From the NCBI GenBank assembly GCA_009746045.1, contig RPFO01000188.1:961220-1025219 (forward strand): a DNA stretch of 64,000 nucleotides, written 5' to 3'. The notes under the pieces were generated by a model, which saw nothing but the letters and a program-made list of their open reading frames with translations, was not told where the DNA came from and ran no database searches. Source of the stretch: Mesostigma viride (taxonomy: Eukaryota > Streptophyta > Mesostigmatophyceae > Mesostigmatales > Mesostigmataceae). Made by a program: the position numbers and the translations under genes. Below, in pieces: positions 299-62,600 of this stretch; position 1 is the stretch's first letter; each line of letters starts with the position of its first letter.

Positions 299-3200
299 GC
301 CGTTCTGAGCTTCTGCATGAAGGTGGTGGTGACAGCGTCCAGCTTCAGCAGCCCGGTCTTCGCCATGGTCATCCCCCGCATGTTCCTCTTTGTGATGGGC
401 ATGCTCACGCAGCTCAGCGGCATCGGCAAGGTGAGCAAATACAGCAAACCTGTAGGGGCGAGGTTTTCGGATGTGGCTCAGGGGCATCGGCAAGGTGAGC
501 ACCCGTGTCACTCTGCCGACGAGCAAGCATCAGCATGCATCGGCAAGCGCATCAGCATGCATCGGCAAGCTGAGTGCTCGTGTCGACTGGCAAGGCGGGT
601 ATTAATGTTGACCGGCATATGGAAGTGACTCGTGACGGTGACCGGCATCGGCACGGTGAGCAAATATAGCCCACTGGTAGGGGCGAGGCGATTGCATGTG
701 GCCTGGCGGCATGGGCAGGGTGACTAGCAACTAGCATTTGCCAAGCAGCACGGGCAAGGGATGCTTGTGGCCTAGTGGCATGGGCCAATCAGGGGAGAAA
801 GAGTGGACTGCAGTGGAAAGTAGAGTTCAGTGAACATGGAGCATTTCGTTGCGCCATCGGCAATGTGAATTGATGCTTAGGAGCTGCCGCCGCCGATCTG
901 ATCAGCCATCTAAGCACATGGCACTAGTGGACGCGAAAATCCATGGGCAAGGGCAAGTGGAGCGATACGTGCTTCTGGCGGAATGGCGTGAGCCTGCGTT
1001 GGCAAGTACGTGTACGGGGTAAATTTTGTCAAGACGGGAGTACAGCAAGGTGGCTCGCAACCAGCGTGTTATGAGCAGCATGGGCAACGTGGGTGTGCGT
1101 GCCCTACTGGCGTGAGCAAGATGGTTCCCTACGACAAGCAATAGATGGAGTGAGCAGCCGTGAGCGAGCGGCATTGGCAAGGCATCGGCATCGCCAGGCA
1201 TGTGGGTATGCGGCATTAGAATGTGTGGGAGAAGTGAGCATTCATGGAGCTATGATAAGGTGAGCTTTAGGGGCCTAGCGGCGTTCGCAAGATCAGCGTT
1301 GTGGAGCAAGTGGCATTTGTGGTAAGGGGCAATCCTGGCATCCCGGGAACACCCCTGGATCAGTATCACACCACCTTCTGAGTGGACCGCCATCGTTGGA
1401 CCATTGTAGTGGGGGGGTGGACCGCCATGGTTGGACCATCGTAGTGGGGGGGTGGACCGCCAACGTTGGACCATCGTAGTGGGGGGGTGGACCGCCATCG
1501 TTGGACCATCGTAGTGGGGGGTGGACCGCCATCGTTGGACCATCGTAGTGGGGGGTGGACCGCCATCATTGGACCATCGTAGTGGGGGGGTGGACCGCCA
1601 TCGTTGGACCATCGTAGTGGGGGGGTGGACCGCCATCGTTGGACCATCGTAGTGGGGGGTGGACCGCCATCATTGGACCATCGTAGTGGGGGGGTGGACC
1701 GCCATCGTTGGACCATCGTAGTGGGGGGGTGGACCGCCATCGTTGGACCATCGTAGTGGGGGGGTGGACCGCCATCATTGGACCATCGTAGTGGGGGGGT
1801 GGACCGCCATCGTTGGACCTTCTTAGTACCACACCAGTGTGCATGGGCCCATCATCCCCTGTTTCTGGTATGCTGGCACCAAGCACCGGATATCTTATCC
1901 CATGTTCTATTTCTACTATGTCACGAGGACTATGTTCTCCATGACTACGTGCTCCATGGCTCTGCGCTCCATGACTATCCCATGACAATACTTGTTTTGT
2001 TGGCACAGAGTAAGACTGTCCACCTAGATGCATGCCCTTCTGCCAATGTAACGAGCCTCCAGGAGCTATGTAATGAGCCGCGCACCGTGTCTTATCTGAG
2101 CAATTAACAAGACACTATCTAATGACCCCAATCCCGTACTGTGTCCATGCGCCTGCCCTCTTGCCTGCAAAGGATCTGTGCCATGCGCTGCACACAAGTG
2201 TCGGTAACTCTGTATCGAAGGCATCAATCATCCACGCATGTGCCTCTCTCCTGGGCCGTATGGCCTTCTACTCAGGAGCTGTGCAGTGCGATACTGGCGC
2301 AACAACACCTTGCGAAAAAAAAAATAAAATGGAAAGTTGTGTAGTAAATTCAGAATATATAAATTCTCTCTGCCCAAAGTCCCTCTCTTCCCCTGCCCTC
2401 TCGCCTATCACGCACAAGTTGTGCAACAAGCTGCACACAAGTATTAAGTGAACACAGCCCTACCTGATGAACCTAAAAATGAACCCTGTCTGTATGCCTG
2501 CCTGTTTTTGGGTGCCCCAGGAGCTGTGCAACGAGCTGCACGCGACGGTGGAGGAGCTGATCAGCGAGCGTGAGTTCACGCTGCACCGCTTCAAGGAGAA
2601 AGAGGACCGGCTGCTGCGGCGAATAGCGGCGCTGGAAAAGACCGAGGCGGTGTGTGCTCTATAACCATAGACGTCGTTGTGTCACATTATCGGCGCTATT
2701 GCGGCACATTATCGGCGCTATTGCGGCACATTATAGGGGCTATTGCGGCACATTATGGGGGCTATTGCGGCACATTATGGGGGCTATTGCGGCACATTAT
2801 GGGGGCTATTGCGGCACCTTATAGGGGCTATTGCGGCACCTTATAGGCGCTATTGCGGCACCTTATAGGGGCTGTTGCGGCACATTATAGGGGCTATTGC
2901 GGCACATTATAGGGGCTATTGCGGCACATTATAGGGGCTATTGCGGCACATTATGGGGGCTATTGCGGCACATTATAGGGGCTATTGCAGCACATTATAG
3001 GGGCTATTGCGGCACATTATAGGGGCTATTGCGGCACATTATAGGCGCTATTGCGGCACATTATAGGGGCTATTGCGGCACATTATAGGCGCTATTGCGG
3101 CACATTATAGGGGCTATTGCGGCACAGTATAGGGGCTATTGCGGCACGTGATAGACGCCTTGCGGCACATTATATTACAGCGCACCCGGCATTCGAGAGG

Positions 3201-6200
3201 ACCGAGGCGACGTGCCCTGGTCACTCACGCTTGCCATGTAACCACTGGATCCGTGCCAGCACCAGGGAAGTAGTGGGAACCGGCTGCTGCGGCGCATGGC
3301 AGCACTCGAGAAAGTTGAGGCCGTGCTTGGGATCTAACGATAGTCATTGCTGCGGCAACCATAGTCATTGCTGCGGCAACCATAGTCATTGCTGCGGCAA
3401 CCATAGTCATTGCTGCGGCAACCATAGTCATTGCTGCGGCAACCATAGTCATTGTTGCGGCAACCATAGTCATTGCTGCGGCAGCCATTGCCATTGTTGC
3501 GGCAGCCGTAATCATGGCGCGTGGCCGCATGAGGGAAGACCGAGGCGGTGCGTGCCTGGGCGCTTGCCAGTTGGTCACTTGATCTAGGCTAGTATGTAGT
3601 GAAGTAGTAGTAACCAGTTGTTTTGGCACGTGTTGCTGCGCAGGGGGATACCAAGGCGCGGCGTGCCTGGGCGCTGGTGATTGACGTGGTGGTGGGGATG
3701 TGCCAGGGATCCATCGCTACACTTTTTAGGCGAGCTTGCGGCATCATCAGCCCTCGGTGTAGACGACTTAAGACGATGTTGAATGGCCAACATGCAGCCT
3801 TGGCATGCTATGGTAGCATATGCCTCTGTGTACAGTGGCTGTGACTCCGTTGTTTTCGCGAATTCTATGCATGATTTCCCTCGCCATTCGCACCTTCCGG
3901 GCTTTCCCTCAGTCCCTCAAAAGAGATCTCCTTGTGCGCTTCGCCTCAACATATGGTGACCTGCTGGACCCAGTGGTTGTGACCAAACAGCCGTGCCATG
4001 ACAAAACGGTGTTTTCTGGGGGTTAAGAAAGATGCATCGGGAGTTTTTACCTGTTTCGTATAGTAGTATGTAGTGTGTAACTTTCGAGTTATACCTTGGA
4101 TATACCCTAAAAAGTTCTAGTCATAGTAGTACTATGGTTATAGTAAAGTTCTAGTTATAGTAGTACTATAGTTATAGTGGTATTATTCAAGCTGACGTAT
4201 ATGACAAGGCCTACAATCTACAGCATGGAACTCACGAGTTGCGGGATGTCCAGAACGGGTGGGGATGGATGGACGGTGTGTGGGGGGGGGAGGGAGTTGC
4301 TGGGGATGAGGGGAATGGGGCGTGGCGGATGTGTGTGATGTGAGCATGTTTGTGTGTGCGTACGACAGAATTTGGAGTCACTGCTGAAGAAGAACATGCA
4401 GGAGAGGAGGGCTGCATCGGAGGAGGCCGGCAAGGAGGCGAATCAGGAGATTGCGTACTTGGAAGGTGGGTTGGTTGCCTACTTGGAGACCCCCTACTGG
4501 GACGGTGGGTTGGTTGCCTATCTGGAGACCCCTACTGGGAAGGTGGGTCGGGTGCCTACTTGGAGGTCGTCTAGTTGCAAGATGGGACCTGCCAGGTGTC
4601 AGAGCGATCGGGAGCCATGGAGCAAGCGAGTGTCTGCAAGTATTAAATCATTAATGGCAGTACAGTGGTGAAGGTGTGACGTGCGATAGGGCTGCGCTGT
4701 GATGGCGAAGTAGTGGACGGTGGTGGCTGCGAATGTTTACATAGTAGTGCCACGAATCAGGGTTTCGTGGTACGAGTCATTCGAGGGAAGTTTGCCGCCT
4801 GAAATTATTTGTGACTGGCTCGTTTTTTTTCCTTTCTAATGCATGCACACAGCCGGTTGTGCGTGCCTTGTAGCTGGTAACCGACAGCTAACACCTTTAT
4901 CATTTGGCTCGCAAAGCTATGTTCAGTAGTTGGGTGTTAAGGTTTCTTTTGGTCAGTTTTTTCAGTTGGCTAATTGAAGGGTGATGGCGGGCTTCCCAAC
5001 TCACCGGATGCTTTTGCTGTTGGCATGAAACTGGCAGGGAAATTAGTGAAATGGTGATATTTTTAAGGCGGAGATGTTAAATTGAGAGTTCTTGTAGATT
5101 TCGGACAGGACCAGCCGCATTTCTTTGACGCTTTGGCCCTGCTTGTGGGCCCTGCTTTGACTCCAATATGTGGGGTGGTTGTCATGCAGACGAGATCGCC
5201 CGGCTAGCCCAGGAAAATGCGACACTAAAGATGGAGATGGCACACCTGGTGGGTTTGTTGTAGGGCTAGTGACCCCTGCCGCGTAATTGTACAGGCTAAC
5301 CACGCTTGTTCCTATGTATCGGCTTTAGTGGGATCTCCTCCTGCTTTCCGTTCACTTTTCTGTCATTACGTTGGCATATCTCGCAAGTGTTACAAAGAAA
5401 ATCTCACCTAGAACCGCCGCGTAAAGGTTGAAGGGAGCACCTTTCTAGCACAGCATTGAGGTTTCAATACACTCAATTTAACACATGCTATTTGACGAAC
5501 CAGGTCACGACATTGTGGTGGATTAGAGGAGGCAAAGAACTAGAGGAAAGGGACACTATGATGGATTAGAGGAGTCAAGGCACACTCACCAAGGACACAC
5601 CATTGAGACGGGCAAAGAATGCGACTAGAAACAACACTCCAGGTCTGTTGTTTTTTTTTTGCATTCTCGACTTTACCTCGCTCCTACCTCATGACTTAAA
5701 AGGGTTTCTAGCTTCTGGCTTCTCGGACAATACAGCGCCAGCCTCTGGCTTTTCTGCCGGATTTTGTTTGCCTTTTGCGAGAAATTGTGCGAACTAATCC
5801 TGGACGTAGCAGCTATCCCACTGGCTAGGGCGTAGGGCCCTTTCCTCCGTACGTCCTAGACCACTGCAACATACTTTATTCTAGCATACTTGATTCTATT
5901 TCTAATTACTTAACATACTTTATTCTAGCATACTTGATTCTATTTCTAATTACTTAACATACTTTATTCTAGCATACTTGATTCTATTTCTAGTTACTTA
6001 ACATACTTTATTCTAGCATACTTGATTCTATTTCTAATTACTTAACATACTTTATTCTAGCATACTTGATTCTATTTCTAATTACTTAACATACTTTATT
6101 CTAGCATACTTGATTCTATTTCTAATTACTTAACATACTTTATTCTAGCATACTTGATTCTATTTCTAATTACTTAGTTGTTCCACTACTGTTTGTGAAT

Positions 6201-9200
6201 GCCTTGCTTTTACCAATGTGCCCCAACTTCCCTGCAGATGGACACAGAAGCTGGCGCCGTCTATGAATCCATCAACACGGTGAGCTTGTGTGCGGCACGG
6301 CACCCTTTGCAAAATACTGCTGCCAGCGTAGTACTCGAAGGAATCATATGGCCATCGAAGTGCAGCTGATCCAAAGGTTAACAAATCTACGAAGGCTAAA
6401 GTCTGAACTAGATGCTTCTGGTCACCAAATAGGTTGGTCGACGAATTCCATGCTCCTGGTTGAAACTTTGGTAAGCTTTGTACAAAATAGCTTTTCTTTT
6501 TTTAGGGCGGGGGGGGGGGGGGAGGAGGATGGACTGAAGCTTCCATTCGCTGCCATTGAGTTCCCCTTCGCGTTTGTATGCTTGCAATCTTCCATGTGCC
6601 TTTTATTGCTGTTCAATCAATGGCAAAACGTGGTCTATCCCTACGGCTTTGCACGGCAACCCCTCTTGGAAGGTGTTCGGATCGTGAAAATGCTCTCGGG
6701 CATGGCCCCCCTTTGGCCGAGCACACTACTCGATGGACATGTCATGCATGGAACTTGGTACACGGGTTGTGTTTGCCCCGCCACAGGGTGTGGCCATGGA
6801 CGTGCTCATCAACGACATGGAGAAAGAGCACCAGGAGCGCGGCCAGCTGCTCACCCAGTACCAGCGGGTCAACAAGATTCTTGACCGCCCGCCCCACCGC
6901 CACGCCGCCGTGCAGGTGAGCGGTCTAGATACGTGTGCCGATTAGCCCTCTAATACATAAACCGTGCCGCCGGTGGAGGTGATCACGATAAACATTCCGA
7001 TCACGTCACCGAACAGGTGTCTGGGGGTCCAGCATGTACTACCCGCGCTGAATTTAGAACCCACGATGCTGTGCAGGTGAGCGTGCAGCTGTAATTCGGA
7101 ACTCATGCTGCTGGTACAGGTGTGCACGTTCAGTGTGGAACCAAGTCCATCAGCGTTGCAGCATGGAGCGGTGGCGATGTAGGGCAAGGTGGCTAGAGGA
7201 CAACGTGGCGATAGGGCAAGGTGGCTACAGGACAAGGTGGCGATAGGGCAAGGTGGCTACAGGACAAGGTGGCGATAGGGCAAGGTGGCTACAGGACAAG
7301 GCGATATTAGAGAATGTGGCTCAAATCGTTTTGTGAATTTGCAGTGTCACCTGCCCAGGTGAACCAGCTGTCCGGGCAAGCCATAGCTTGCATGTGGAAT
7401 CTGTGATATCCGGAGGTGGAGTAGTAGTGTGTGAATAATGTGACATCGGTGGCTTGTTCCAGAGGTGGAGTAGTAGTGTGTGAATTATGTGACATCGGTG
7501 GCTTGTGACGGAGGTGGAGTAGTAGTGTGTGAATAATGTGATATCGGTGGCTTGTGATATCCTAGAATGGATTGATAGCGTAACCCGCCTACCTTAGTCA
7601 GCTTTTGCCGATCCCAAAGTGGAGCTATGGCTTGGCAAGGCAACCGCTATGATATAAGCAACCCCTACAATAAGTGCCCCTGTATGTGGAACACGTGCTC
7701 GTTCGACATCCACTGTCCATCAGCTCACTGCTCACACACTGGCTGCCACCTGGCAGTGGCACATGGCAAAGTGGCCGAGCGAGCCCATAGAGTTTTTAAT
7801 TGCCAGAGCAGAGCCATTTGTGGTGGGACGGAGCGCCTGCATGTGTCAATAAGGAGACGCCTGCGCATGATTTTCGGAGACGATATTACCCATTAGGTGT
7901 TATATTAGGTGGAAAGCTACCAGGTAGTGTAGTAAGAAAAAGAATTACTACCCTTACAGAAATGACAGTCTGCGACGCAAAAGCACGCCCTTTGCCCTCT
8001 CTCCCCTGTTGTGACTGTCATACATATCATGCCTTCGCTTCTTTCCCCCCCCCGTCAGGTGTGCGAGGAATGCCTGTGTGGCATGTGCGGGGACCCCCGG
8101 CCGCAGGCGGGAAGGATCTCCGCGGTATGTGCCCAATAACCAAACCGTGGCGAAGGTGGAGACCTTTTGCATGTGAATCGACCCAACAAGGTTGGAAACC
8201 AAGTTAAACAGCCCGTTTTGCGTTCCGAAGCCACAGCATGATTCTTATCCCGGATTGCAGGCGGGCAAGTTTTCCGTGGTACATGCCCAGTAACCAGCCT
8301 CATTTCTTGGTGCCGCTTTGCATCTGTGGTATTTGAATCAAGCCGCTTCATGCCAGGGAAGTCATGCGTTGCTAGGCATCCCCCCCCATTTATATATCCA
8401 TGCCCTTGGGGTTTCCATCTCCGCCTTTATACTTCGGCGCTCTCCAGCTACGTATAATTGCGGATCAGCAGCTGGGATAAAGGAAACTAGGTGGCTGCGC
8501 GTGGTTGTGTCTGTGCATAGTAAGATCTGCCCCATGTCCGACACAGTGTCCGTCATGACATGTGGCCAATCGGTTTCTGTAGGCAGCCAAATGTCCACGT
8601 CAAACACCTTCAGAGGTAAGATCGGCTGACAACCCTCAGGGTCAGCAAGGAACCATCATGTCCTTCCAAGTTCTCCTCCTTGCCTCTTGGCTTTACCGGA
8701 GATATCGACACAGCTTAGCAGTGGCGCATCACGTCTTAGGGTGTCGTAGGGTGTTTGTTTGGTACTGTTAATACTGTTCAAATACTACTACATTACCAAT
8801 CGGAGGCGCCAAGTGTCTGCCCTGCGCAGCAGCTTAACTCCCGAGCTGAGGTATACAAGTAATAGTTTTAAGGGAATACAAACACGACTCAACTTCATAA
8901 CTAGTAGGTGGCGCCCTGTGAAGGTCGCCGCAGGAGCGCGTCTCCAATAGCTATCTATAGGCCTTAATTCGATCACTTATAGAAGACCCAAAATGACTGT
9001 CCTGCGCAGGAGCGCGTCTCCAAGGCCAAGAGAGCCGAGCTCAAGGAGGCGCTCAGCGCCAAGGAGGGGTCCCCCAGGGACCACCGCCTGCGCAAGTCGG
9101 GCTTCTGGGAGCTGTGCATGCCCAAGGTCATGCGGGCGTTCATCGATGACCATCTACAGGAGGTGGGTGTCCACGTGCGCAAGGCCGCCTGCCCTCTTTA

Positions 9201-12200
9201 GATGGCCTGTATTTTAATATAACACCTGTCTTTTTACATAACGCCTGCGTAGGGCAGGCTGCTGGCGTCAGAGGGAACCCCCACAGGGGAGCTCCCCCTG
9301 CTTTGTCCATGTGACCCCTAAATGAAAGACCCCGCGCTGTTGGCATGTAATGGCTTGAATGGAACGCAAGACCCCGAGCTTTTGGCGTGTAATCGCTTGA
9401 ATAAAAGTTGCCTTGGATTGGCACGTTGAGTAAGAATTGCCTTCTGTTACCATGGTGCTGCGTACACAAGCTCGCTTGCTTTCACTACTGCCTGCGTGCA
9501 TAAAGCCACCCGTCATGTGCATGTAACTAGATTTACAAGACGGTCTTTATCCTTGCAACGTTTCCACATCCTGCATGTACCAGGATGTTGTCTTCTAGCA
9601 TACGCCAATGCATACTCATGAAGCTGTTTTTTGAGCGCCCTTTCTCATAGCCGTCCCCTCTGGTGAAAGATCTGTTTCGCTTCCCATATCTTTGAGTCGT
9701 CATCCCCATGTACGGTGAATAGCACACCCATAACTCCACACCTTGCGCCCAAACACTGTACCCTAAGTTCAGCCCAGGGGGTTGCATTGCGAAGCCGTTG
9801 TTGCACTTTACACCTTACACCCTTAGAACTTTGAAAGCAAATCATACACCCTCACGCGGCCTTCTGCGGCCTATACCAAGCATCTTACACCTCACACCCT
9901 TGCACCCCACACAGTGCACGCTGTGCGCTCATCCCTAATTAACCTACTCCCACCCACGCTTAGCTCTCGATGCAGGACATGCTACACGCTCATACCTTAC
10001 CAAGCCACGCCCTGATCAAGCTGCACACTAATCAAGCCACTCCCCTCCACATGCATGGGCTCGCAGGACATGCGTGCGGACCAGCTGGGCGAGGCCATGC
10101 TGGCATCCCTGATGGACACCCTGGTGTCGGGCAAACACGAGGACGACGTGCGCCGCATGTGCCGCAACGAGCCCAGCGTGACATTTGCAGAATACGTGAT
10201 CAACTACTTTTGCAAGGTGGGGGTGCAGAGTACGTGGCCGACTACTTTTGCAAGCTGGGGGTGCAGAGTACGTGGTCAGCTACTTTTGCAAGGTGGGGGT
10301 GCAGAGTACGTGGCCGACTACTTTTGCAAGCTGGGGGTGCAGAGTACGTGGTCAGCTACTTTTGCAAGGTGGGGGTGCAGAGTACGTGGCCGACTACTTT
10401 TGCAAGCTGGGGGTGCAGAGTACGTGGCCGACTACTTTTGCAAGGTGGGGGTGCAGAGTACGTGGTTGACTACTTTTGCAAGCTGGGGGTGCAGAGTACG
10501 TGGCCGACTACTTTTGCAAGCTGGGGGTGCAGAGTACGTGGCCGACTACTTTTGCAAGGTGGGGGTGCAGAGTACGTGGCCGACTACTTTTGCAAGGTGG
10601 GGGTGCAGAGTACGTGGCCGACTACTTTTGCAAGCTGGGGTGCAGAGTACGTGGCCGACTACTTTTGCAATGTGGGGGTGCAGAGTACGTGGCCGACTAC
10701 TTTTGCAAGCTGGGGGTGCAGAGTACGTGGTCAGCTACTTTTGCAAGGTGGGGGTGCAGAGTACGTGGCCGACTACTTTTGCAAGCTGGGGGTGCAGAGT
10801 ACGTGGTCAGCTACTTTTGCAAGGTGGGGGTGCAGAGTACGTGGCCGACTACTTTTGCAAGCTGGGGGTGCAGAGTACGTGGCCGACTACTTTTGCAAGG
10901 TGGGGGTGCAGAGTACGTGGTTGACTACTTTTGCAAGCTGGGGGTGCAGAGTACGTGGCCGACTACTTTTGCAAGCTGGGGGTGCAGAGTACGTGGCCGA
11001 CTACTTTTGCAAGGTGGGGTGCAGAGTACGTGGCCGACTACTTTTGCAAGGTGGGGGTGCAGAGTACGTGGCCGACTACTTTTGCAAGCTGGGGGTGCAG
11101 AGTACGTGGCCGACTACTTTTGCAATGTGGGGGTGCAGAGTACGTGGCCGACTACTTTTGCAATGTGGGGGTGCAGAGTACGTGGCCGACTACTTTTGCA
11201 AGCTGGGGGTGCAGAGTACGTGGCCGACTACTTTTGCAAGGTGGGGGTGCAGAGTACGTGGCCGACTACTTTTGCAAGCTGGGGGTGCAGAGTACGTGGT
11301 TGACTACTTTTGCAAGGTGGGGGTGCAGAGTACGTGGCCGACTACTTTTGCAAGCTGGGGGTGCAGAGTACGTGGCCGACTACTTTTGCAAGGTGGGGGT
11401 GCAGAGTACGTGGCCGACTACTTTTGCAAGGTGGGGGTGCAGAGTACGTGGCCGACTACTTTTGCAAGGTGGGGGTGCAGAGTACGTGGCCGACTACTTT
11501 TGCAAGGTGGGGGTGCAGAGTACGTGGCCGACTACTTTTGCAAGGTGGGGGTGCAGAGTACGTGGCCGACTACTTTTGCAAGCTGGGGGTGCAGAGTACG
11601 TGGTTGACTACTTTTGCAAGCTGGGGGTGCAGAGTACGTGGTTGACTACTTGTCCAATGTGGGGGTGCAGAGTACGTGGCCGACTACTTTTGCAAGCTGG
11701 GGGTGCAGAGTACGTGGTTGACTACTTGTCCAATGTGGGGGTGCAGAGTACGTGGCCGACTACTTGTGCAAGCTGGGGGTGCAGAGTACGTGGTTGACTA
11801 CTTTTGCAAGCTGGGGGTGCAGAGTACGTGGTTGACTACTTGTCCAATGTGGGGGTGCAGAGTACGTGGCCGACTACTTTTGCAAGCTGGGGGTGCAGAG
11901 TACGTGGTTGACTACTTGTCCAATGTGGGGGTGCAGAGTACGTGGCCGACTACTTGTGCAAGCTGGGGGTGCAGAGTACGTGGTCAGCTACTTGTGCAAG
12001 GTTGGGGTGCAGAGTAGGTGGTCAACTACTTTTGCAAGGTGGTAGTGCAGAGTAGGTGGTCAACTACTTGTGCAAGGTGGGGGTGCACAGTACTCTAGCT
12101 CTTTTGGGTTTGTGTATAATGCCCACCACGGCAAGGTGGTCATGGCACGTGCAATGCCCGCACCCGCCACCAGGTCTCGGAAGGCAACCGACCGGAAGCC

Positions 12201-14567
12201 GCCCAAAAGCTTCTCTCCATGGTCAGCTCCCTCGCTGGCAAGTTTGAGGGCCGTCCAAAGATGGAGGTCTTCAGCGCGATGCTGGGGGCAGGGCGCCCTG
12301 AGATGGAGCCTGCGGGAGTCGGTGAGCTGGACTTAGAGAGGGAAATGTGTGAGCCTGGTTGGAAGCAGTTCAAGTTCAGGTTTAAGCGTTTTCCTTTCAC
12401 CCTTTTATTCCTTCCCCTAAGAACTGTGGAGGTACAGAAGCTGTTTTTTTGTGAAGAGGAACGAGGAGCATGATGCCAGGCAAGCAGGTACTCTAATTAA
12501 TGAGCATGAACTATTTGTTTTTTCTTTCCTTGCTTTGTTGCATTTGAAGGCGATTCCACTCTGTGTTGTGTAGCATTGTGAATAGGCTATGGCAGTTGGT
12601 AGTTTAGTTAGGAGCAGGACCTAATCAGCGCTAGGAAGCAGTCTGCGTCGGCTGAATCACGCGTATTGGGGGGAACTATACAAGGGCCTCTGTCATTGGA
12701 ACGGCTACCCGGATCCAACAGAAGGGCAAAGGAGAATCTTTTCACTCGCCGGTGGGTGTCATGCCACAGAATCCGGATCTGTGTCGGCATCATCCCAAAT
12801 CTGCGTTGCACTAGCATCAAGACACTCGTTCAGTCCTCTTTATAAAGCCCAGGTTATCGCGACAAGGCTTGTGTTCATCCCGCCTTTTTGTTTACGTGGT
12901 CGTGCGCTTATTAAGACGTGGTCGTGCGCTTATTAAGACGTGGTCGTGCGCTTATTAAGACGTGGTCGTGCACTTATTAAGACGTGGTCGTGCGCTTATT
13001 AAGAAGTGGTCGTGCGCTTATTAAGACGTGGTCGTGCGCTTATTAAGACGTGGTCGTGCGCTTATTAAGACGTGGTCGTGCGCTTATTAAGACGTGGTCG
13101 TGCGCTTATTAAGACGTTGCAGTAGTGCCACATCACAGCTCTGGCTCAGCGTTGTGCTTCTATCACTCGAAGAAACTGCGTACACTGCAGCAGCATCTTC
13201 CTTCTTACTTAGGGCTCGGGCACTCCCAACAACAATATACGAACTGCTTTGTAGTAAACAAATAACAACCAACAGCGTGGAGTAGCCTTGAGTTTTGCCT
13301 GGCTCCAACGTGAGGCTAATGGCACGACTTGCGCTTGCCTGTCTCGCGCAGACATCTGCGTTCGGCTCAAATCCTTCTTCAAGGAAAAGAAGGCGGAGGA
13401 AGGTGTCGTCTGGGGCGACGACGGCTCCTGCGCGATCGCCATGGCGAGCGCGGAGCGGCTGATGCAGGAGTTTGCCACGCGGGGGCTGGTGACGCGCGCG
13501 GCTTGTGAGGCGGTGCTTGCCAGCATGCCCGAGAAGCCGCCAGCAGTGCCGGTCACGATGGAGCGGCAGGTACATGTGGCGCGGCATGCATATGGGATGT
13601 AGGGTCAGAGGGTTCCTGTATTGGTACTCGCGTGACACAGTCTACGTGATCATTAATTAAGGGACAACGTTTGATGGGGTCAGAGGGCTCCTGTATTGGT
13701 ACCCACGTGACGCAGTCTTCGTGCTTTGATGAGTTATGCATGTGAGGTAGACGTGGCGTGGCATGTATGTGGCATAGACGGGGGGCGCCATGCATATGCT
13801 CCTCCAGGGTGGGTGGCTGTCCCAAGGCAAACTTATGTGCACAGGTGACAGTATTCTGAATCAGTTTCTTTGTTCCTATTTGCAGTATTGGGCGAAATGG
13901 AAGCATATGTTATGCAGTCACTAGTAGGAGAGCGGCTGCTAGCTAGTGCCTACTGGCTCATTCCACCTTGCAGTTTTTGCTTCCTGTCAGCTGTTACGTA
14001 CGTGACATCGATGCCCCTCGTGCATTGGAAACAAGCTTCTTTTGGGTTAACAAGCTGCTCACTGGCTAAGCATATATCCCTGCAGACACCAGCAAATTCT
14101 ACTTCAAAACTGCTGCCCTTGAAAGATTGTAACAATGGGCATACAATTTTGCATTCTCATGCCCGTGCTCACCCTGTCCTGTGGTCTATCAGGTTTCCCA
14201 CATATCCAGGGCAGCCAGCTTTGCTGAGCCGCCGCCGCTGCCGCCCCCCGCAACGATTTCCTTGGATGAGCTCATGCACGCGGTTGTTCACCCACGCATA
14301 ATGGCTAGTGAGGGGAACCCAGGCTTGCTAGTGCGGCCCACCAGCCGACGGCGCCGGAAGAGCAGTGCCACCAACCCAAATCGACCGGGCACAGGGGGAG
14401 CTCGCGTCCCCAGCGGGCGGAAGAGCCCATCGCAGGCCCGGCCAGGTACTTCTTCTCGCAAGAGTCCCGTGGGGCAGCCTTCGCAGGGCCGGCCAGGCAG
14501 TTCCGCACGGAAGAGTCCGGTGGGGCAGCCTTCATCTGCGGGGCAAGCTGCTAAGCCTTCTGGGTGA
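299..14567 (+). CDS. Coiled-coil protein of unknown function, 12 exons, 5' end outside window
   Basis: Exons joined by GT-AG introns with matching phases: 299-430, 2521-2649, 4369-4465, 5190-5248, 6238-6279, 6787-6915, 8059-8124, 9010-9162, 10067-10216, 12174-12321, 13352-13569, 14193-14567. They give 565 residues to a TGA stop; a start ATG is not visible, so the N-terminus is probably upstream of the window. Residues 1-44 are hydrophobic and methionine-rich. Residues 45-196 are mostly charged heptad-like coiled coil (for example KEKEDRLLRRIAALEK). Residues 197-208 hold a cysteine cluster (CEECLCGMC). Residues 219-441 look globular and helical; the stretch AEYVINYFCK...SMVSSLAGKF...MEVFSAMLG has the spacing of a helical segment that I associate with ciliary proteins, which is an inference. 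The C-terminal 124 residues are basic and low in complexity, with SRKSP/ARKSP repeats. Nearly every codon in the first exon ends in G or C, supporting the frame. I cannot name the family. Confidence 0.8.
431..1240 (+). repeat. Decayed copies of the exon-1 donor junction inside intron 1
   Basis: The exon end plus donor reads GGCATCGGCAAG/GTGAGC at 419-436. Close copies occur at 483-500 and 644-661, and weaker ones (GGCATGGGCAGG/GTGACT type) near 705-722, 850, 940, 1070 and 1170. The stretch 431-500 also aligns with 655-722 as a unit of about 70 bp. Copies get weaker with distance from the exon. Confidence 0.6.
1376..1820 (+). repeat. Minisatellite, about 35-bp unit, about 12 copies
   Basis: The unit contains GGACCGCCATCGTTGGACCA followed by TCGTAGT and a run of 6-7 G. 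It lies in the middle of intron 1 of the 12-exon gene. Open reading frames across it on the minus strand are repeat artefacts. Confidence 0.9.
2059..2520 (+). repeat. Decayed copies of the exon-2 acceptor junction
   Basis: The true acceptor and exon start read CCAG/GAGCTGTGCAACGAGC (2517-2536). Related stretches at 2059-2086, 2170-2200, 2273-2290 and 2413-2442 keep GAGCTRTG, CAACRAGCTGCAC or parts of them. They fill the 3' end of intron 1, mirroring the donor copies at its 5' end. Confidence 0.55.
2680..3165 (+). repeat. Minisatellite, 22-bp unit, about 22 copies
   Basis: The unit is GGCACATTATAGGGGCTATT plus GC, with substitutions. It starts about 30 bp after the exon-2 donor, inside intron 2. 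The GCGGC and GCTATTGC words resemble the exon end CGGCGAATAGCGGCG, so it may derive from it. Confidence 0.9.
3192..3668 (+). repeat. 21-bp array and degenerate copies of the exon-2 end
   Basis: At 3343-3500 is an array of about 7 units of 21 bp (CATAGTCATTGCTGCGGCAA plus C). Around it are copies of the exon-2 3' end: 3279-3330 still reads DRLLRRMAALEKVEAV when translated, against DRLLRRIAALEKTEA in the true exon. Weaker copies lie at 3192-3215, 3519-3556 and 3633-3668, each followed by a GTGC-type donor remnant. Confidence 0.7.
4453..4569 (+). repeat. Three-copy donor-junction duplication after exon 3
   Basis: The true junction is TACTTGGAAG/GTGGGT, with the donor at 4466. GTGGGT recurs at 4505 and 4543, each preceded by CTACTTGGAGACC or CTACTGGGA sequence, giving a unit of 38-39 bp. 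Confidence 0.7.
5868..6176 (+). repeat. AT-rich minisatellite, 44-bp unit, about 7 copies
   Basis: The unit begins AACATACTTTATTCTAGCAT and ends CTAATTACTT. Copies are nearly identical, implying recent expansion. The array lies in the intron upstream of the 14-codon exon at 6238-6279 and ends about 60 bp before its acceptor. Confidence 0.9.
7188..7560 (+). repeat. Two small minisatellites, 32-bp and 49-bp units
   Basis: At 7188-7310 about four units of 32 bp (GGTGGCTACAGGACAAGGTG then GCGATAGGGCAA). At 7413-7560 three units of 49 bp (GGTGGAGTAGTAGTGTGTGA then ATAATGTGACATCGGTGGCTTGT). Both are in the intron after exon 6; 7070-7085 upstream of them keeps a copy of that exon's junction GTGCAG/GTGAGCG. 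Confidence 0.85.
10217..12090 (+). repeat. 38-bp minisatellite, about 50 copies, derived from an exon end with its splice sites
   Basis: The unit is GTGGGGGTGCAG followed by AGTACGTGGCCGACTACTTT and TGCAAG. It starts exactly at the donor of exon 10067-10216, whose last bases are GCAGAATACGTGATCAACTA then CTTTTGCAAG. Each unit thus repeats the exon end (AAG), the donor (GTGGGG) and an acceptor-like TGCAG. Variants (GCTGGGGG, TGGTCAGC, TGGTTGAC, TTGTCCAATG) are interspersed, and some units are 37 bp. Because no unit holds a stop, long open frames cross it in all three forward frames; they are not evidence of coding. Confidence 0.95.
12893..13115 (+). repeat. Minisatellite, 22-bp unit, about 10 copies
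   Basis: The unit is GACGTGGTCGTGCGCTTATT plus AA, nearly perfect. It lies in the intron between exons 12174-12321 and 13352-13569. No similarity to the flanking exon ends was seen. Confidence 0.9.
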
Positions 14568-19915: not shown

Positions 19916-19996
19916 AGTCAATTTAGCCCCCAAGGACCATGCATGCTGCCCACATCAGGGACGGGAGGTACATAACCATGCGACATGCGTCCGTAC

Positions 19997-35240: not shown

Positions 35241-35404
35241 CTTCACACTATGCCCAGCTAAGGGGGAGTATGTTATGTGGGGGAAGATCATCATAACTAT
35301 ACACGAGTGTCTGATCAGAATACACGAGCTATCCATCCATCAATCGGGGTTAATGCTCCGTGACTCCCCAACGGGAGCACGAGTCTAATTAATTAATTAA
35401 TTAA

Positions 35405-35641
<237 letters not shown>

Positions 35642-46100: not shown

Positions 46101-49100
46101 CCAGGGACGTGGGCCGCACGCCCGAGTAGCGCCCGAGGGGCAGGCCCGGGGAGCGCAGCGGCGCAACGTCGCAGTAGCCGAGCACGCACACCTTGGCGGG
46201 GTCTTTGACCTGGCGTACGTCACGCGAGCATTATCGGGGGTCGTTGATGAATTAAAAAGCATCGGGGGGTCGTGCGAGACGTTGTCAGGTCCCACGCGAG
46301 CAAAATATCACCATGTTGCATGACAGGGGCGGAATACATCCCACGGAGTACGAATGAGGCAACCAGCGCAGGCCACAAGTATGTATGCCCTCACCTCACC
46401 TGTTAAAGTAAAGATTTTAATGTAATATATCGACCTGCACCTTCGCCTACTGCAGTAGTAATATGACACCTCATGAATATATAATACATGAATATATAAT
46501 ATATGAATATATGTCATACCATTGCGTATGACATCCGCTGAACCTCCTACTACAGTCTAGAGCTCCCTGTGGCAGCATCCTCTCTGCGGCTCTCCCCTTG
46601 TGGACTCACGTACAGGAACACGTGGAAGACGGCGCGTTCCTTCTTTTTTGGGGGGGAACACATATTGGAAAACATTTAGGACTCACGTACAGGAACACGT
46701 GGAAGACGGCGCGTTCCTTCTTTTTGGGGGGGGGAACACATATTGGAAAACACTTAGGACTCACGCATCGGAGCACGCATAGGAACACGTAGAGGACTCA
46801 CGCATCGGAGCACGCATAGGGACACGTAGAGGACTCACGCATCGGAGCACGCATAGGGACACGTAGAGGACTCACGCATCGGAGCACGCATAGGGACACG
46901 TAGAGGACTCACGCATCGGAGCACGCATAGGAACACGTAGAGGACTCACGCATCGGAGCACGCATAGGGACACGTAGAGGACTCACGCATCGGAGCACGC
47001 ATAGGGACACGTAGAGGACTCACGCATCGGAGCACGCATAGGAACACGTAGAGGACTCACGCATCGGAGCACGCATAGGGACACGTAGAGGACTCACGCA
47101 TCGGAGCACGCATAGGGACACGTAGAGGACTCACGCATCGGAGCACGCATAGGGACACGTAGAGGACTCACGCATCGGAGCACGCATAGGAACACGTAGA
47201 GGACTCACGCATCGGAGCACGCATAGGGACACGTAGAGGACTCACGCATCGGAGCACGCATAGGGACACGTAGAGGACTCACGCATCGGAGCACGCATAG
47301 GAACACGTAGAGGACTCACGCATCGGAGCACGCATAGGGACACGTAGAGGACTCACGCATCGGAGCACGCATAGGAACACGTAGAGGACTCACGCATCGG
47401 AGCACGCATAGGGACACGTAGAGGACTCACGCATCGGAGCACGCATACGACTCACGCATAGGGACATGGCAGCACACCCCTTCCTGTGGACTCAAATATA
47501 AGAACACACCTACGTACATAGGACTCACGTACAGGAACATGTCTAAACCTCACAAATAGGGACATGGCGCGCCCCTCCCTTCTGTGGACTCTCTTATAGA
47601 TGGAACACTCTTATAGATGGAACACTCTTACATATAGAACATGCTTAGGACTCACGTACAGGGACACGTAGAGGACTCACATATAGGAACACGACGCGGC
47701 CGTCCGCTTGGTCCGCACACGAGGCGCAGATCGAGCCATCCATGGCGATGGCCAGCGCGTGCACCCGCGTCCAGTGCAGGCGTGCCCGAAACACGACAGC
47801 GCTCTCTGGTGTCACCCGCGCACCCGCCACGCCCGCGCCGTCGTCCCGCGCGCCAGTAGACAGCACAAGGATCTCGCCCGCGCTCGTCCCCGCGACCACC
47901 AGCGCCCCAGATGGGTGGGCCACCATGCAGCTGAACCCTGGCTTGGGGGGGCTGGGGGGGGGTGAGAGGGGTCCGGCCCGGTGGTCCTTGTGTAGGCGTA
48001 GTACAGACGAGGGGTGGACCTCGCCACTCGCCAGAAACCAGCTGGTGGGGTTGTGCACGGGTGAGTGGGTGAACGCATACGGGGCCATCAGCCAGAGACG
48101 ATGAGAAGAGGAGCCTCTCACCCCACTCGCTGCCCCCCAGTTACCAAAGGGTTACTGTATGGGGTGCGCGCATAGGGAACCCTGGGCCACATAGGACGAG
48201 AAGAGCGGGAGACAAAGGCAGAAGATAAACCTCTCACCCCACCTGCTCCCCCACATCCCGATAGAATTTACTATCAGTGGAGAGTGCTCGGTGGTCTCCC
48301 ATGGATGATCCACGAGCGCAGGTACTACCCTAATATACAATCCTTTAATTAGCTCATTAGGCAATGCCCTGGTTATGGATGCAATCCTTTCGTTAGCTCA
48401 TTAAGCTACCAGTCGAGAGTGCTTGGTGGTGATCCTCCATAGGGCCATCCACGTGAGCACGCACTACCTTATTGACCAATCCTTTATTTAGCTCATTAGG
48501 CAATCCCCTGGTTGCCCACCGTCACAGCTGCCAGCGTATGCTGTCGCTGTCACAGCTTATCATGTGGCGCCCTACAGACGCTTCCACCAGAGGAGCCTCA
48601 CGCACGCATTAATTAATTAATTAAACTCGTGCTCCCGTTGGGGAGTCACGGAGCACCGAAGTGCTTTTAATCCCTGTGTGTGCACTACAGGAGAAAGGGC
48701 AGAGACCCCCAGTCTCCTTCATGCCAAAGGCATGCCACAGCTGCAATCGGGCGCGGCTAGCTAAAAGGACAGGCTAACGATCCGGCAAACTGTGGGTGCA
48801 ATAAGACCCATGTGAGCATATCATAGCAAGGAGCGTGGGCAAGTAATCTGAACATAGCCAGGGCGTAGCATGGCTGTACTAGGACTAGGCTATGGCTGGT
48901 TGTGTACCGTGCGTTGGCGGCACGTGACTAGGTGTGTTGGCACAGCTAGGCAACATTCTAGGCATGGCTGCCTTAGCGGCAGTGACGCCAATGGTTACAA
49001 GCTAGGGCTATTGCTATTCTAGCCCGCTGGGGGCGTCCACATCTTGTGGTTGATCATCAGGTCCCCGCCCCTCCAGTACACCTTGGGCTTCTGGGGGTCC

Positions 49101-51725: not shown

Positions 51726-52943
51726 CTTAACGAATTGCGGGTGTCGACTGTTGAGTACTCCCGCCCCTCCGCGCGGCCGGGGGACGTCCGGCTTGGGGGG
51801 GCGGGCAGCTCAGGTGCGCATAAGCCAGCACGTTTGCCGTGCAATGGCAGCGGTTATTAAGCCTGCTGGAGGCGAGCGTGGATACGGCGGTCGTCGAGGA
51901 GTACGCCTAGTCCCTTATAATCAAGGACCGCGTGGCACCACACCGACACGCCCAGATAGAGGGCGTTATTGATTAGGCTCAGCAATAGTCCTTAAGGCAC
52001 AGAACGGCCAGGGTTGCTACCGACGACGAAACGTTGGGATTTGCCATCGTGGCCCAGCTCAACGAGTAACATCGCTAGGCACTTTGCGTTGAAGTGGTAA
52101 CCCAAATCTGTCCTCACTGCTATCAAAAGATTTCTCTGCATACACCATAATTACAACCAGCTGGAACCGTTCCGATCAGGACATATGTGGCATTTGAAGT
52201 GTTCAGTATCACATCATGTGGATGGATCAACATAGGCTCTCGTGTGCGATGCGCGCTACCGACCGGTAACGAATTTACGACACCATAGAAAGTCGTCAAT
52301 TTCTGCAATAACGGGCTGTCGCACAAAAATAGGAATGGCCGGTTCTGTCAGACCTTTTTCCGTCCGTCGTCTACAGTATGTGTGCGGTCTGATACCCTCG
52401 ACAGTCTTCAACTGCAGTAGAAAACTTACAGCGAATCAGCTGGTCATGCATCTCGCACCAACTTTAGCACTAGCGTCGATGCCACGTACACATGGTGACA
52501 CCTGCTGAGTGCTGACACGTACGAACTAGTGCACAGTTCGTACTTGGTGATACGATGCGTAGATAGTAGATACGAAGCCTGCATTGACTGATGACGATGC
52601 TCATCCCCAAATCATTCATGTCACGTATTTGCGACGGCATTTTTCCATGGTGAAGGCATGTCCGGTTGTGCTGTTGGAAGGGTGCTCGAAGAAAATTAGC
52701 CGCCACGTTGAAACTCAAGTTTTGCAAACGGATTACTTACTGGACCGCCTTCTTACGTCATGCGAGTTGACGCCGCCGCTTTCCTCCCGGTGGGCCAAGC
52801 GACAATGCCGTAGTGTATGACAATAAAGTGCATGACGTGATAAAATTGTGTTTTTTCCCGGGTGGCCATTTCAAAGGTCCGGAACACGAATTCTTGCCAT
52901 TTTTTTGAAGCTTTCTGCGGCAGTCAGGGCGGCTCACCGCAAG
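51726..52943. promoter_or_regulatory. Divergent intergenic region between CFAP43 and COQ4
   Basis: 1.2 kb separates the two start codons, which are transcribed outward. No clear TATA box or repeat was recognised. Any promoter assignment rests only on position. Confidence 0.4.
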
Positions 52944-53762
52944 ATGGTTCCTGGGTCTGGCTCGGGCATTTGCCGGTCATTGCGGGGCATGCCTTTGAAC
53001 TCGGTAGCCCCGGTGCTAGGATTCGTTCGCCATGTATCCTACACTGCGCCAGATATTGGCCACATGTATCCATCCCACGTGAGTTTGAGTCCATTGCAGC
53101 GAGCTGCAGTCGCTGTTGTATCTGGGATTGGGGCCCTTGTGCAGCCTCGTCGCGCGGATTTCGTTGCTGCTGTAGGCGAGACGACCGGTAGGCTTGCCTT
53201 TGCCAGAATCCAACAACGCATGTCGAGCGATCCTGAGGGCCGCATCATCCTAGCCGAGCGGCCCCGCATCACTATGGAGAGTTTGAGTTCAGCGGGTGTG
53301 TTTGACATGCCGGCCAACACGTTCGGCGGTGCATACGCCCGCTTTATGGGAAAGAGAGGGTTTTCGGCCGACGAGCGGCCGCCTGTCCGTTATATTGATG
53401 ACGTGGACTTGGCGTACGTCGCGGCGCGAGCGCGTGAGGTTCATGATTTGTGGCACGTCTTGTTTGGCCTTAGGACCGACATGATGGGCGAGGTGACCCT
53501 GAAATGGATCGAGCTGTGTCAGACCGGGTTGCCCATGTGTGCGCTGGCCGTCGTGGGCGGGCCGCTGAGGATGCCAAGCGAGCGGCGGAGAGTTTTGAGA
53601 GAAGTGTACCTCCCCTGGGCCACCCAAGCCGCGTTCTCATGTGCTGACCTAATGTGCCTGTACTATGAGAAACATTTCGAGGATGACATCGACGAGCTAA
53701 GGAAGCGGTGGCGAATTCCCAAGGCACCTCCTATGCCGCTGTCATCGCCTGGGACACGATGA
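52944..53762 (+). CDS. COQ4: COQ4, ubiquinone biosynthesis protein, mitochondrial
   Basis: 272 residues from ATG 52944 to TGA 53762 in a single exon. The metal-binding motif HDxxH(x)11E of the Coq4 family is intact (HDLWHVLFGLRTDMMGE), as are TFGGAYARFM, ERPPVRYIDD, LKWIELCQTGLPMCAL and YYEKHFEDDIDELRKRWRI, all typical. The first ~35 residues are basic and hydroxylated without acid residues, as expected for a mitochondrial presequence. The frame is open upstream as far as a GTG at 52848, but the first ATG is at 52944. COQ4 acts in the matrix-side CoQ synthome and has been implicated in C1 decarboxylation/hydroxylation of the quinone ring. Absence of introns and a weaker G/C bias at third positions contrast with its neighbours. 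No TGTAA was found in the first 300 nt downstream. Confidence 0.93.
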   Translation: MVPGSGSGICRSLRGMPLNSVAPVLGFVRHVSYTAPDIGHMYPSHVSLSPLQRAAVAVVSGIGALVQPRRADFVAAVGETTGRLAFARIQQRMSSDPEGRIILAERPRITMESLSSAGVFDMPANTFGGAYARFMGKRGFSADERPPVRYIDDVDLAYVAARAREVHDLWHVLFGLRTDMMGEVTLKWIELCQTGLPMCALAVVGGPLRMPSERRRVLREVYLPWATQAAFSCADLMCLYYEKHFEDDIDELRKRWRIPKAPPMPLSSPGTR

Positions 53763-59807: not shown

Positions 59808-62249
59808 CTAGGTAGTGACCTGCTGCGGTGGCGCGGCTGGCTGTCCCAGCGTCGACCGGTGGCTCTCTTGGGACATGCGTTCCCTGAGAGGCCTCGGTGT
59901 GGCCTCCTTGCCCGACCGTGGGGTCGCTTCCTTGCCCGAGCGCGGCGTCGCCTCTTTGCTGGCGACCGACCGGTGGGACCTCGGGGTGGCTTCGCGGTGC
60001 ACCTCCCCCTCCCAATAGGACACGGCGCCGAGGTGCTCCAGCTGCTTGACAAACTTGATAATGGCGGACGTCACGGTGCCGTTGTAGGTGGGCGTCTCGA
60101 GCTCAAAGTGGCCCACCCCCTTGATGACGTGCTGGAACTTTGGGGCCACGGCTTTCGCGAACACGGATGCGAATTGCTTCATGGAGGTGAAGCCGTCCTC
60201 GGAGCCGACGATGAACAGCTGGTGGTTTGGCAGGGGCGGCAACGGCGATGTTGATAGGGATGATGGGGATGGGGGTTAGTGGTGACAGCAATGGTGATAG
60301 GGATGATAGGGATGGAGGTTAGTGGTGACAGGGAAGGTCATAGGGTGAGAAAGGTATGATAGGGCGGTCAGAGAGTGAGATAGGAGCAGTGATAGGGACG
60401 AAGACACGAAATCAGGATAGAGATGGGGACAAGGATGGTGACATGGTTGGTTTTAAGGACAGCAGTAGGGATCATGATATGTAGAATACATGATGGTAGA
60501 TTCTGGTAATGAAGGTTAGATGCAAGCATTAATAGAAACAACTGGCGTGACTGGCCATAACAAGAAGACAAACATAACAACTAGGAAACCATCATCACAC
60601 ATGAGAGATTCCGGGAAGTTCGGTCTGACCTTGCCCTTCCCTTAGCTTAAGGGAAGGGTGAGAGCCCAAAATGGTAAGGATGACTCGTTCGAGCAGCCTT
60701 CCGAACACTTTTGACTTCCCGTAACTGACGGCAGGAAGAGTTGAATAAAGTGGCAGCAAAGGCACGCTCGGTTCAGATGTACGCACGAACGGTACGCACC
60801 CTCTTCTTTCAGCCTGTCTTGTGTGCACGCGCCCACGTACCCGCGCCTGCACGGGCAAACCTAAGGGTAATTCCCTTTGGCTTGGCCCTTTTAAGGACAA
60901 AGAAAGTAAGAAAAATCCTTCAGCGGCGGCACTTATCCCTTGTGGTCCATATGGACGGTACGGCTCGACCTTTAAAGGGAAGGGAAATTTCAGTTTGCCC
61001 TTCTCCGGAATCTCTCGACATAACAAGGAACCCGTAAAAGCATACCTTTTCTTGTGGTTGTACAGGCCCTCCCTCCCCCCTCCCCCCTGCCCCCTCCCCC
61101 TTCCCCCTCCCCCCTCCCCCTTCCCCCCACCCCCCTCCCCCCCTCCCCCCTCCCCCTCCCCCCCCTCCCCCCTCCCCCCCTCCCCCCTCCCCCCTCCCCC
61201 CTCCCCCCCCCTCCCCCCTCCCCCTCCCCCCTCCCCCCTCCCCTCCCCCCTCGCCCCCTCGCCCCTCCCCCTCCCCCTCCCCTCCCCCCCCTCCCCCCTC
61301 CCCCCTCCCCCCTCCCCCTCCCCCTCCCCTCCCCCCCTCCCCCCTCCCCCCTCCCCCTCCCCCCTCCCCCCCTCCCCCCCCCCCTCCCCCCTCCCCCCCT
61401 CCCCCTCCCCCCTCCCCCCCTCCCCCCTCCCCCCCTCCCCCCCCTCCCCTCCCCCCTCCCCCCTCCCCCCCTCCCCCCCTCCCCCTCCCCCCTCCCCCCC
61501 TCCCCCCTCCCCCCTCCCCCCCTCCCCCTCCCCCCCCCCCCTCCCCCCCTCCCCCCCCCCTCCCCTCCCCCTCCCCCCTCCCCCCTCCCCCCCTCCCCCT
61601 CGCCCCCTCCCCCCTCCCCCTTCCCCCTCCCCCTCCCCCTCCCCCTCCCCCTCCCCCCTCCCCCTCCCCCCCCCTCCCTCCCTCCCCCTCCCTCGCCCCC
61701 TCCCCCCCTCCCCCCTCGCCCCTCCCCCCCTCCCCCCCTCCCCCCTCCCCTCCCCCCCTCCCCTCCCCCCTCCCCCCCTCGCCCCCTCCCCCCCTCCCCC
61801 CCCTTCCCCACCCTCTCCCCGTTTCTCATCTACAACACCCCCCAACCCCACTCTTGTTCTTTGCCGCCCTCTTGTTTCTCTTTCTTCCTCAGACTTGGCG
61901 CTCGTCCCGAAACCCATCCCCAACCGCAGTACAGCCCCCTTTGTTATATCTTTATTCTTTCCCTTTGTTATATCTTTATTCTTTCCCTTTGTTATATCTT
62001 TATTCTTTCCCTTTGTTATATCCTTATTCTTTCCCTTTGTTATATCTTTATTCTTTCCCTTTGTTATATCTTTCTTTCCAATCTCTCCCCCCTCCTCATC
62101 CCCCCCCTCGTACTCGGCCCTGGCCCCTCACCTTTGGCTTGGTGGAGGTGGCACGTTTTCAAAGTGGCGCCGAAGAAGAGTGAGGCACTGTTGCCAAAGG
62201 GGTAACCGATGCCCACGTAGGCCGCCACGCCTTCCACACCTCCAGCGCG
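59808..62249 (-). CDS. Alpha/beta hydrolase, plant-type, 3' two exons
   Basis: Exon 62249-62132 encodes GGVEGVAAYVGIGYPFGNSA then SLFFGATLKTCHL and ends AAAG/GTGAGG. The last exon, 60218-59808, begins LFIVGSEDGFTSMKQFASVF, has GVGHFELETPTYN (the catalytic-histidine region) and stops with TAG. GYPFG..ASxxFG and LFxxGxxDGFTSxKQ match a family of plant alpha/beta hydrolases of unassigned substrate. The C-terminus adds KEATPRSG repeats. The two exons do not join in frame (phase 1 donor, phase 0 acceptor), so a small exon in the 1.9-kb intron is missing, or the gene is damaged. The nucleophile region and N-terminus lie upstream, beyond what I can recognise. A TGTAA (minus strand) lies at 59240-59236. 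Confidence 0.7.
60603..61016. mobile_element. Inverted-repeat element, 414 bp, in the hydrolase intron
   Basis: Ends GAGAGATTCCGG (60603-60614) and CCGGAATCTCTC (61005-61016) are perfect inverted copies. The strong palindrome CCCTTCCCTTA-GCT-TAAGGGAAGGG lies at 60634-60658. Non-coding. Confidence 0.55.
61060..61815 (+). repeat. (CCCCCT)n low-complexity tract, 750 bp
   Basis: Almost pure C and T with runs of 4-10 C. It is G-rich (G-quadruplex-prone) in the sense strand of the hydrolase transcript. Open frames over it are artefacts. Confidence 0.95.
61934..62077 (+). repeat. 24-bp minisatellite, 6 copies
   Basis: The unit is TTTGTTATATCTTTATTCTT plus TCCC, nearly perfect, in the same hydrolase intron. 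Confidence 0.9.
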
Positions 62250-62600
62250 CTGCCTGCATACGATGAATGCATAGAAGTAATAATAAGAGATCAATGAGAC
62301 ACCAGCGCGCTGCCTGCATAGTACATTTCTGGCTCATCATCACAGTTTCTGATTTCATCATTTGCACATACATTTCTGCCTTCTGGCAATGCGCTGGCTG
62401 TCTCATTGATATACATAGGAGCAGAATAACCGTTAACACCTTGAATACAAAGTAGATGAGACAACCGGCACGCTGCCTGCAACCCGCCACATGTTTGAAC
62501 AACTGTGGCTTGATAGTTAGTGCACAGTGGTGTCCCTACAGCATTCGTTGATGGTCATACGCGTGAGACAACCGGCACGCTGCCTGCACCCGGCAAGTGT
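62249..62600 (-). repeat. Copies of the hydrolase exon acceptor
   Basis: In the minus sense the true acceptor region is TGCAGGCAGCGCGCTGGAGG (about 62258-62238). TGCAGGCAGCGCGCTGGTGT recurs near 62315-62296, and TGCAGGCAGCGTGCCGGTTG near 62480-62461 and 62587-62568. All are upstream of the exon. Confidence 0.75.

Follow-up and report, generated by a model that had tools for sequence, protein, structure and literature searches.

Do the introns of the streptophyte alga Mesostigma viride grow out of their own splice sites? The question is raised by a 64,000-nucleotide stretch of its genome (assembly GCA_009746045.1, contig RPFO01000188.1, positions 961,220 to 1,025,219; hereafter the window, whose numbering is used throughout). 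Here, a preliminary description made from the sequence alone had reported that introns of three genes, namely a 12-exon gene on the plus strand, the minus-strand gene CFAP43 and a minus-strand hydrolase-like gene, contain repeated, weakening copies of their own donor or acceptor junctions, and had proposed a general process in which each junction seeds the expansion of its intron. We find that most of these copies are real and that similar ones occur in unlinked genes. They are probably the visible margin of small tandem duplications of an ordinary kind found throughout introns, and not the outcome of a process started by each splice site.

Introns of the window contain exon-bearing copies of their donor junctions

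We aligned the 30 exon bases at each junction to the adjoining intron, with 100 segments of the same length from other introns of the window as controls (the exon-only test), for the 18 introns of the plus-strand gene and CFAP43. Eight of the 18 donors scored above all 100 controls (430, 2649, 8124, 10216, 47681, 44443, 42612 and 39805). At donor 4465, 4 of 100 controls reached the score of the own intron, and 0 of 300 did so when the probe spanned the junction; the signal at donor 6915 is weak with either probe (19 of 100 and 13 of 298). Two of the 18 acceptors, 2521 and 9010, scored above all 100 controls. Acceptor 62249 of the hydrolase-like gene, where the exon start rests on our own reading and the AG lies at 62253 or 62249, gave a junction-spanning score of 19 (0 of 500 controls) and a weaker exon-only score of 12 (6 of 500). 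Acceptor 10067 showed no excess with the junction-spanning probe (41 of 300 controls), and 48116 was rejected as a splice site: in the annotated protein this exon begins at 48041, a position that tests negative (52 of 238 controls). Copies are thus found at 12 of the 15 junctions named in the preliminary description, comprising nine of its ten donors and three of its five acceptors. The eight donors that it had not named (A4, A5, A8, A10, A11, C1, C2 and C7) show no copy that carries exon bases (14 to 88 of 100 controls); one of them, A11, scores 17 with the junction-spanning probe (0 of 300 controls) despite its negative exon-only test, a signal that presumably comes through the intron half of the probe.

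The copies take several forms. Arrays that include or resemble the junction were detected by Tandem Repeats Finder (TRF) at four donors. On the plus strand, donor 4465 lies in an array with a period of 38 and 2.8 copies (4456-4565; TRF and alignment), and donor 10216 begins a 38-nt array of about 50 units (10186-12093; TRF), the first of which is made of the last 31 exon bases and the first 7 intron bases. On the minus strand, tandem duplications at donor 44443 occupy 44017-44506 (TRF and alignment), with copies at 44269-44338, 44146-44206 and 44017-44061 and a TRF unit of 149 nt at 44244-44506 that extends into the exon, and a 37-nt array related to donor 47681 lies at 46756-47447 (TRF and alignment). 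At four other donors the copies are single or widely spaced and do not form tandem arrays by TRF. Donor 2649 has aligned copies at 3279-3343 and 3516-3555, separated from it by a 22-nt minisatellite (2683-3174; TRF), and single copies belong to donor 8124 (8249-8296, plus strand, score 25), donor 42612 (42440-42489, minus strand, score 29) and donor 39805 (39709-39746, minus strand, score 22). Copies of donor 430 lie at 476-501 and 619-680 (scores 24 and 27, from exon -19/-36 to intron +7/+25), with two weaker ones in and after the stretch 476-680. On the acceptor side, three copies within 2055-2436 end 418, 327 and 84 nt before acceptor 2521 (scores 18, 18 and 16; 0 of 179 controls), one at 8929-8947 precedes acceptor 9010 (score 19; 0 of 300), and those of the hydrolase-like exon start lie within 62254-62640 on the minus strand. 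Two further claims of the preliminary description are borne out: the copies carry exon bases and cross the junction, as do all 56 donor copies scoring at least 18, and they weaken with distance, the rank correlation between score and distance being negative in seven of the eight introns with at least two copies (2 to 8 each) and 0 in the eighth.

Copies extend to unlinked genes

We then drew a sample outside the window, chosen to escape the selection made in the preliminary description: 11 introns from the gene of a glycogen phosphorylase and 9 from that of a methyltransferase, both some 54-89 kb past the window end and named by eye, and 44 introns from other contigs, in genes for dynein heavy chains anchored by matches to Pfam PF12774. 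These introns come from ab initio models made with our own simple gene finder; exons shorter than 60 nt (dynein, methyltransferase) and one doubtful microsatellite-bearing exon were omitted, as were introns shorter than 300 nt from the sliding profile described below. A junction was counted as positive in the exon-only test when at most 2 of 200 controls reached its score (for phosphorylase, none of 90-100). Positive donors numbered 0 of 11 in phosphorylase, 7 of 33 in dynein, 0 of 11 in a second dynein set and 2 of 9 in the methyltransferase, and positive acceptors 2 of 11, 3 of 33, 0 of 11 and 2 of 9, respectively. A repeat run on the dynein donors gave 5 of 33 instead of 7, owing to different cut-offs and random controls. 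Junction copies therefore extend beyond the window and into unlinked genes, but differ from gene to gene.

Duplications of similar spacing occur along the whole intron

Local copies are common in the interior of introns as well. Among interior 30-mers, 200 of 768 have a copy nearby (per-intron mean 0.158; 0.28 in introns of the window), and 117 of 594 do so when junction-like positions are omitted (mean 0.121), while the same test is positive at 14 of 62 donors and 7 of 62 acceptors. The nearest copy of a donor lies at a median distance of 94 nt (23 introns, whole intron searched), which resembles the median of 76 among duplications inside introns (quartiles 48-132; n=113; search limited to 500 nt), and donor-copy spacing shows no preference for reading frame (8, 10 and 5). 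The copies thus have the marks of tandem duplications and minisatellites, and since many local duplications of similar spacing are found across introns, junctions need not seed anything. Separately, filtered probes found local duplications at 24 of 175 positions in introns of the window and at 10 of 309 in its intergenic DNA, which looks mostly transposon-derived.

We propose that small tandem duplications, spaced mostly 30-170 nt, may keep enlarging M. viride introns along their whole length, by what we infer to be slippage or short-range repair; some would grow into minisatellites, and every copy would decay. A duplication that straddles a donor would be tolerated, since the old mRNA is still obtained when splicing uses the first copy, and its intronic copy would then decay as neutral sequence, yet stay recognizable for longer than interior copies because selection holds the exon half of the original. 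One that straddles an acceptor may be tolerated less often, as the first AG after the branch point would tend to win, and acceptor copies would accordingly be no commoner than background.

A residual donor excess leaves room for a mild hotspot

The strongest competitor of this reading is that used donors themselves attract duplications. We slid a 40-base probe across each donor and searched the 500 intron bases that follow for a copy scoring at least 15. In 60 introns outside the window, positives at offsets -60, -40, -20, 0, +20 and +40 numbered 2, 7, 15, 8, 9 and 11, a peak at the donor junction in a sample untouched by the earlier selection. The 15 of 60 for junction-centred 40-mers compares with 5.8 (standard deviation 1.8) expected from positions +60 to +400 of the same introns, a 2.6-fold excess. 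No such peak is seen at acceptors, where the mirrored test gave 5 of 61 against 4.9 expected, without enrichment when unfiltered. Inside the window, 10 of 16 donors were positive against 4.5 expected, and 2 of 16 acceptors against 3.0. Sought in other introns, the same probes match in 0-2 of about 335 cases, except for the pyrimidine-rich last 40 bases before acceptors, which at that cut-off do so in 23 of 332. How large the effect looks varies with the filter: donors stand at 15 of 58 against 4.4 with low-complexity interior omitted, and at 16 of 59 against 7.2 without the filter (acceptors 5 of 59 against 6.8). Our conclusions rest on the unfiltered paired figures, that is, 15 of 60 against 5.8 and the corrected set of 63 donors described below. 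With a matched 120-base probe, acceptors outside the window reached 5 of 61 against 3.9, and they exceed background only when low-complexity interior is omitted (5 of 61 against 1.6, P 0.014). The preliminary interpretation is thus supported in part: the copies are widespread, reaching unlinked genes, but the excess is donor-sided, with acceptors at background in the unfiltered tests.

Part of the donor peak is expected in any case, because a conserved exon keeps old copies recognizable: an interior duplication would decay in both copies, whereas at a junction selection would hold the exon half of one. In our own simple simulation, the conserved exon raised visibility 1.26-fold for a junction window that is half exon and 1.52-fold for a pure exon window. 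We applied these factors to a corrected set, for which eight further introns of the region were listed (two in the window, one in a gene at 25416-30472 and one in the hydrolase-like gene, and three upstream in the plus-strand gene among them); two of the eight are too short and six count, and one of the added acceptor coordinates (27357) is off by one base. Four dynein donors that share one sequence were collapsed to one. In this set, 14 of 63 donors have a copy where 7.4 would be expected without correction (P 0.002), and 5 of 64 acceptors where 5.8 would, or 7.0 and 8.3 at the two factors.

Several results weigh against our reading and in favor of a donor hotspot. The uncorrected excess of 15 over 5.8 was reached in 0 of 10000 simulations. 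The 120-base probe also finds more donors than expected outside the window, 9 of 61 against 4.4 (P 0.007), or against 3.3 with low-complexity interior omitted (P 0.001). The corrected set still gives 14 of 63 against 9.1 at the factor 1.26 (P 0.016) and against 10.8 at 1.52 (P 0.08), so that after correction and the collapse of paralogues a donor excess of 1.3-1.5-fold stays (P 0.08 to 0.016), with the visibility factors themselves taken from the simple simulation above. Finally, all four dynein loci that were fetched with the donor AACATGAACACG|GT (L022, L024, L035 and L038) have junction-spanning copies, with best scores of 27-65. In all four these copies fall within the first 300 intron bases, and the sequence between copies differs among the loci, while copies in two of them share, by eye, a short variant that is missing from both exons. 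The exon-only test passes only two of the four, with paralogues also serving as controls there. Common descent, gene conversion or recurrence are possible sources of these copies, and together with the residual excess they keep a mild donor hotspot alive.

Other results speak against a hotspot, at least a strong one. Pure-intron probes taken from the first 40 bases beside the donor show no excess over background (7 of 63; 8 of 60 in a smaller set), which weighs against strong donor hotspots, as their events should show there; among introns lacking a junction match, copies of the opening bases tend if anything to be scarce (1, 2 and 5 of 45 at 0, +20 and +40). Exon conservation predicts part of the peak, and neither the 11 phosphorylase donors nor the 11 of the second dynein set are positive. 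Donor look-alikes of equal strength within introns show no excess either (7 of 69 sense, leaving out those related to the own donor, and 4 of 64 antisense); motif-driven slippage is rejected on this ground, and the result fits a hotspot that acts at used donors. We regard it as possible, though doubtful, that tandem duplication has a hotspot at the used 5' splice site, with a rate some 1.5-2 times that of the intron background and no counterpart at 3' splice sites, through which introns lengthen preferentially at their donor ends and repeatedly at homologous donors of paralogues. Slightly less probable still is its mechanistic form, in which transcription- or spliceosome-linked DNA damage (an R-loop or nick) at the 5' splice site would raise tandem duplication, so that introns grow from their 5' ends. 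Seeding by each junction, as originally proposed, is thus not needed to explain the copies, given how common interior duplications are, and what is left of it is a donor excess that shrinks on correction.

Copies decay as neutral sequence

Selection for decoy or backup donors, one of the drivers considered in the preliminary description, seemed at one stage to be indicated by alignments across the junction, in which GT was mismatched in 0 of 42 positions of best copies (7.8 expected) and in 2 of 82 across 41 copies (13.6 expected). This strong retention is an ascertainment artefact of forcing alignments across the junction, and we withdraw it. With exon-only probes and the 10216 array excluded, GT is intact in the best copy of 11 of 16 introns, against 11.2 expected at an exon identity of 0.84, and in 18 of 27 copies overall (expected fraction 0.72). 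Within the 10216 array, 27 of the 49 intronic units matched by pattern keep GT and 22 have CT. In the junction-crossing alignments of the copies, positions +3 to +5 are not conserved (11 mismatches of 59, against 11.1 expected). The copies behave as neutral leftovers whose GT decays at the rate of the remaining copy sequence; decoy selection is largely refuted by the exon-only probes, and we consider it very unlikely.

Birth of the introns themselves through tandem duplication of a piece of exon that contains AGGT (the Rogers model), with the copies as remnants, would account for exon bases found in introns beside GT. Donor and acceptor junctions of one intron, however, resemble each other no more than junctions taken from different introns do (mean 8.35 against 8.21), and their likeness reaches the 99th percentile of mismatched pairs in 0 of 62 introns. 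Origin by tandem genomic duplication (TGD) is rejected on this absence of likeness, although very old gains would no longer show, and we rate it marginally below decoy selection. The least probable explanation is that the copies are dispersed repeats, introners or an assembly artefact: repeats do occupy 30.1% of the intron space of M. viride (PMC6947507), but 16 of 62 donors match their own intron against 0-2 of 62 after introns are swapped, the copies differ from one another, the assembly was built from PacBio reads and polished with Illumina data (PMC6947507), and a search of the 440-Mb genome with the first 870 nt of intron 1 returned that stretch alone. This search skips very common words and covers this one intron, so that the copies there are not dispersed repeats as far as the search sees. 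The claim that own-junction matches exceed those to other introns is thereby upheld, and the rebuttal of dispersed repeats so far stands for the single intron searched genome-wide.

Gene models and further features of the window

The plus-strand gene spans 299-14567, with exons at 299-430, 2521-2649, 4369-4465, 5190-5248, 6238-6279, 6787-6915, 8059-8124, 9010-9162, 10067-10216, 12174-12321, 13352-13569 and 14193-14567. Its frame is open across every join, with GT/AG throughout, and it probably starts upstream of the window. No homologue was found at E 0.001 among the annotated proteins scored as candidates, nor any Pfam family above the cut-off; the gene may be missing from the annotation, and its junctions rest on reading frame and GT/AG because no annotated protein was found. 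CFAP43 (51725-37124, minus strand, 8 exons; Pfam CC_Cfap43) matches an annotated M. viride protein (jgi/Mesvir1) with 100% identity across 97% of the protein, which confirms all seven introns.

The window also holds a COQ4 gene as a single open frame at 52836-53759 on the plus strand (PF05019, E 1.5e-85) and a C-type lectin-like frame at 19926-20495 on the minus strand (PF00059, E 1.4e-5). Long polypyrimidine/polypurine tracts ((CCCTCC)n, (GGGGGA)n, (AGGG)n) lie at 61067-61803, 41542-41817 and 63108-64000, the first two being intronic in our gene models. By eye, (TAAG)n or (CTTA)n arrays at 34484-34636, 35386-35639 and near 57720 adjoin one common conserved stretch and resemble the microsatellite tails of a non-LTR (long terminal repeat) retrotransposon, and a near-identical direct duplication of ~250 bases (about 18000-18250 and 19370-19640) lies beside tetranucleotide arrays.

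Comparison with known systems

Long introns are usually attributed to transposons. Our findings suggest small tandem duplication as a further contributor to intron length in a streptophyte alga whose published assembly (strain NIES-296, 442 Mb) has a mean intron length of 1141.9 bp, and the phrase "tandem repeat" does not occur in the main text of that genome paper (PMC6947507). The 24,431 genes and 4.81 exons per gene given there amount, by our multiplication, to some 93,000 introns. Donor-straddling copies moreover offer a clock in which the exon keeps one arm fixed. Should the donor excess that remains after correction be genuine, it would implicate damage or repair coupled to splicing or transcription at the 5' splice site.

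Introners, which are near-identical introns at many loci, resemble the present case in that intron sequence has a repeated origin; the first 870 nt of intron 1, which matched only themselves, lack the near-identical counterparts in many unlinked introns that introners have. Gain of introns through tandem duplication has been described (PMC4974935, PMC2891723), and in the Drosophila account the duplication takes in splice-site sequence, as it does here, but makes a new intron (PMC2891723), whereas in M. viride existing introns lengthen and the two junctions of an intron show no relation to each other. Rogers and Bendich (2025; PMC11782384) likewise treat short repeats at the borders of introns, comparing the 5' border of an intron with its 3' border; in M. 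viride the donor recurs within its own intron, without likeness between 5' and 3' ends. Minisatellite changes have been related to human gene structure (PMC2812944), and among the works listed by a literature search that covers only a minority of subscription papers, none describes duplications across donors as a feature of a whole genome. The closest match is to intronic minisatellites and local tandem duplications, with which the copies share their head-to-tail, decaying arrangement, units of some 20-150 nt and, in the one intron tested, privacy to the locus; what sets M. viride apart from these is the large share of duplications that straddle donors and carry exon sequence into the intron.

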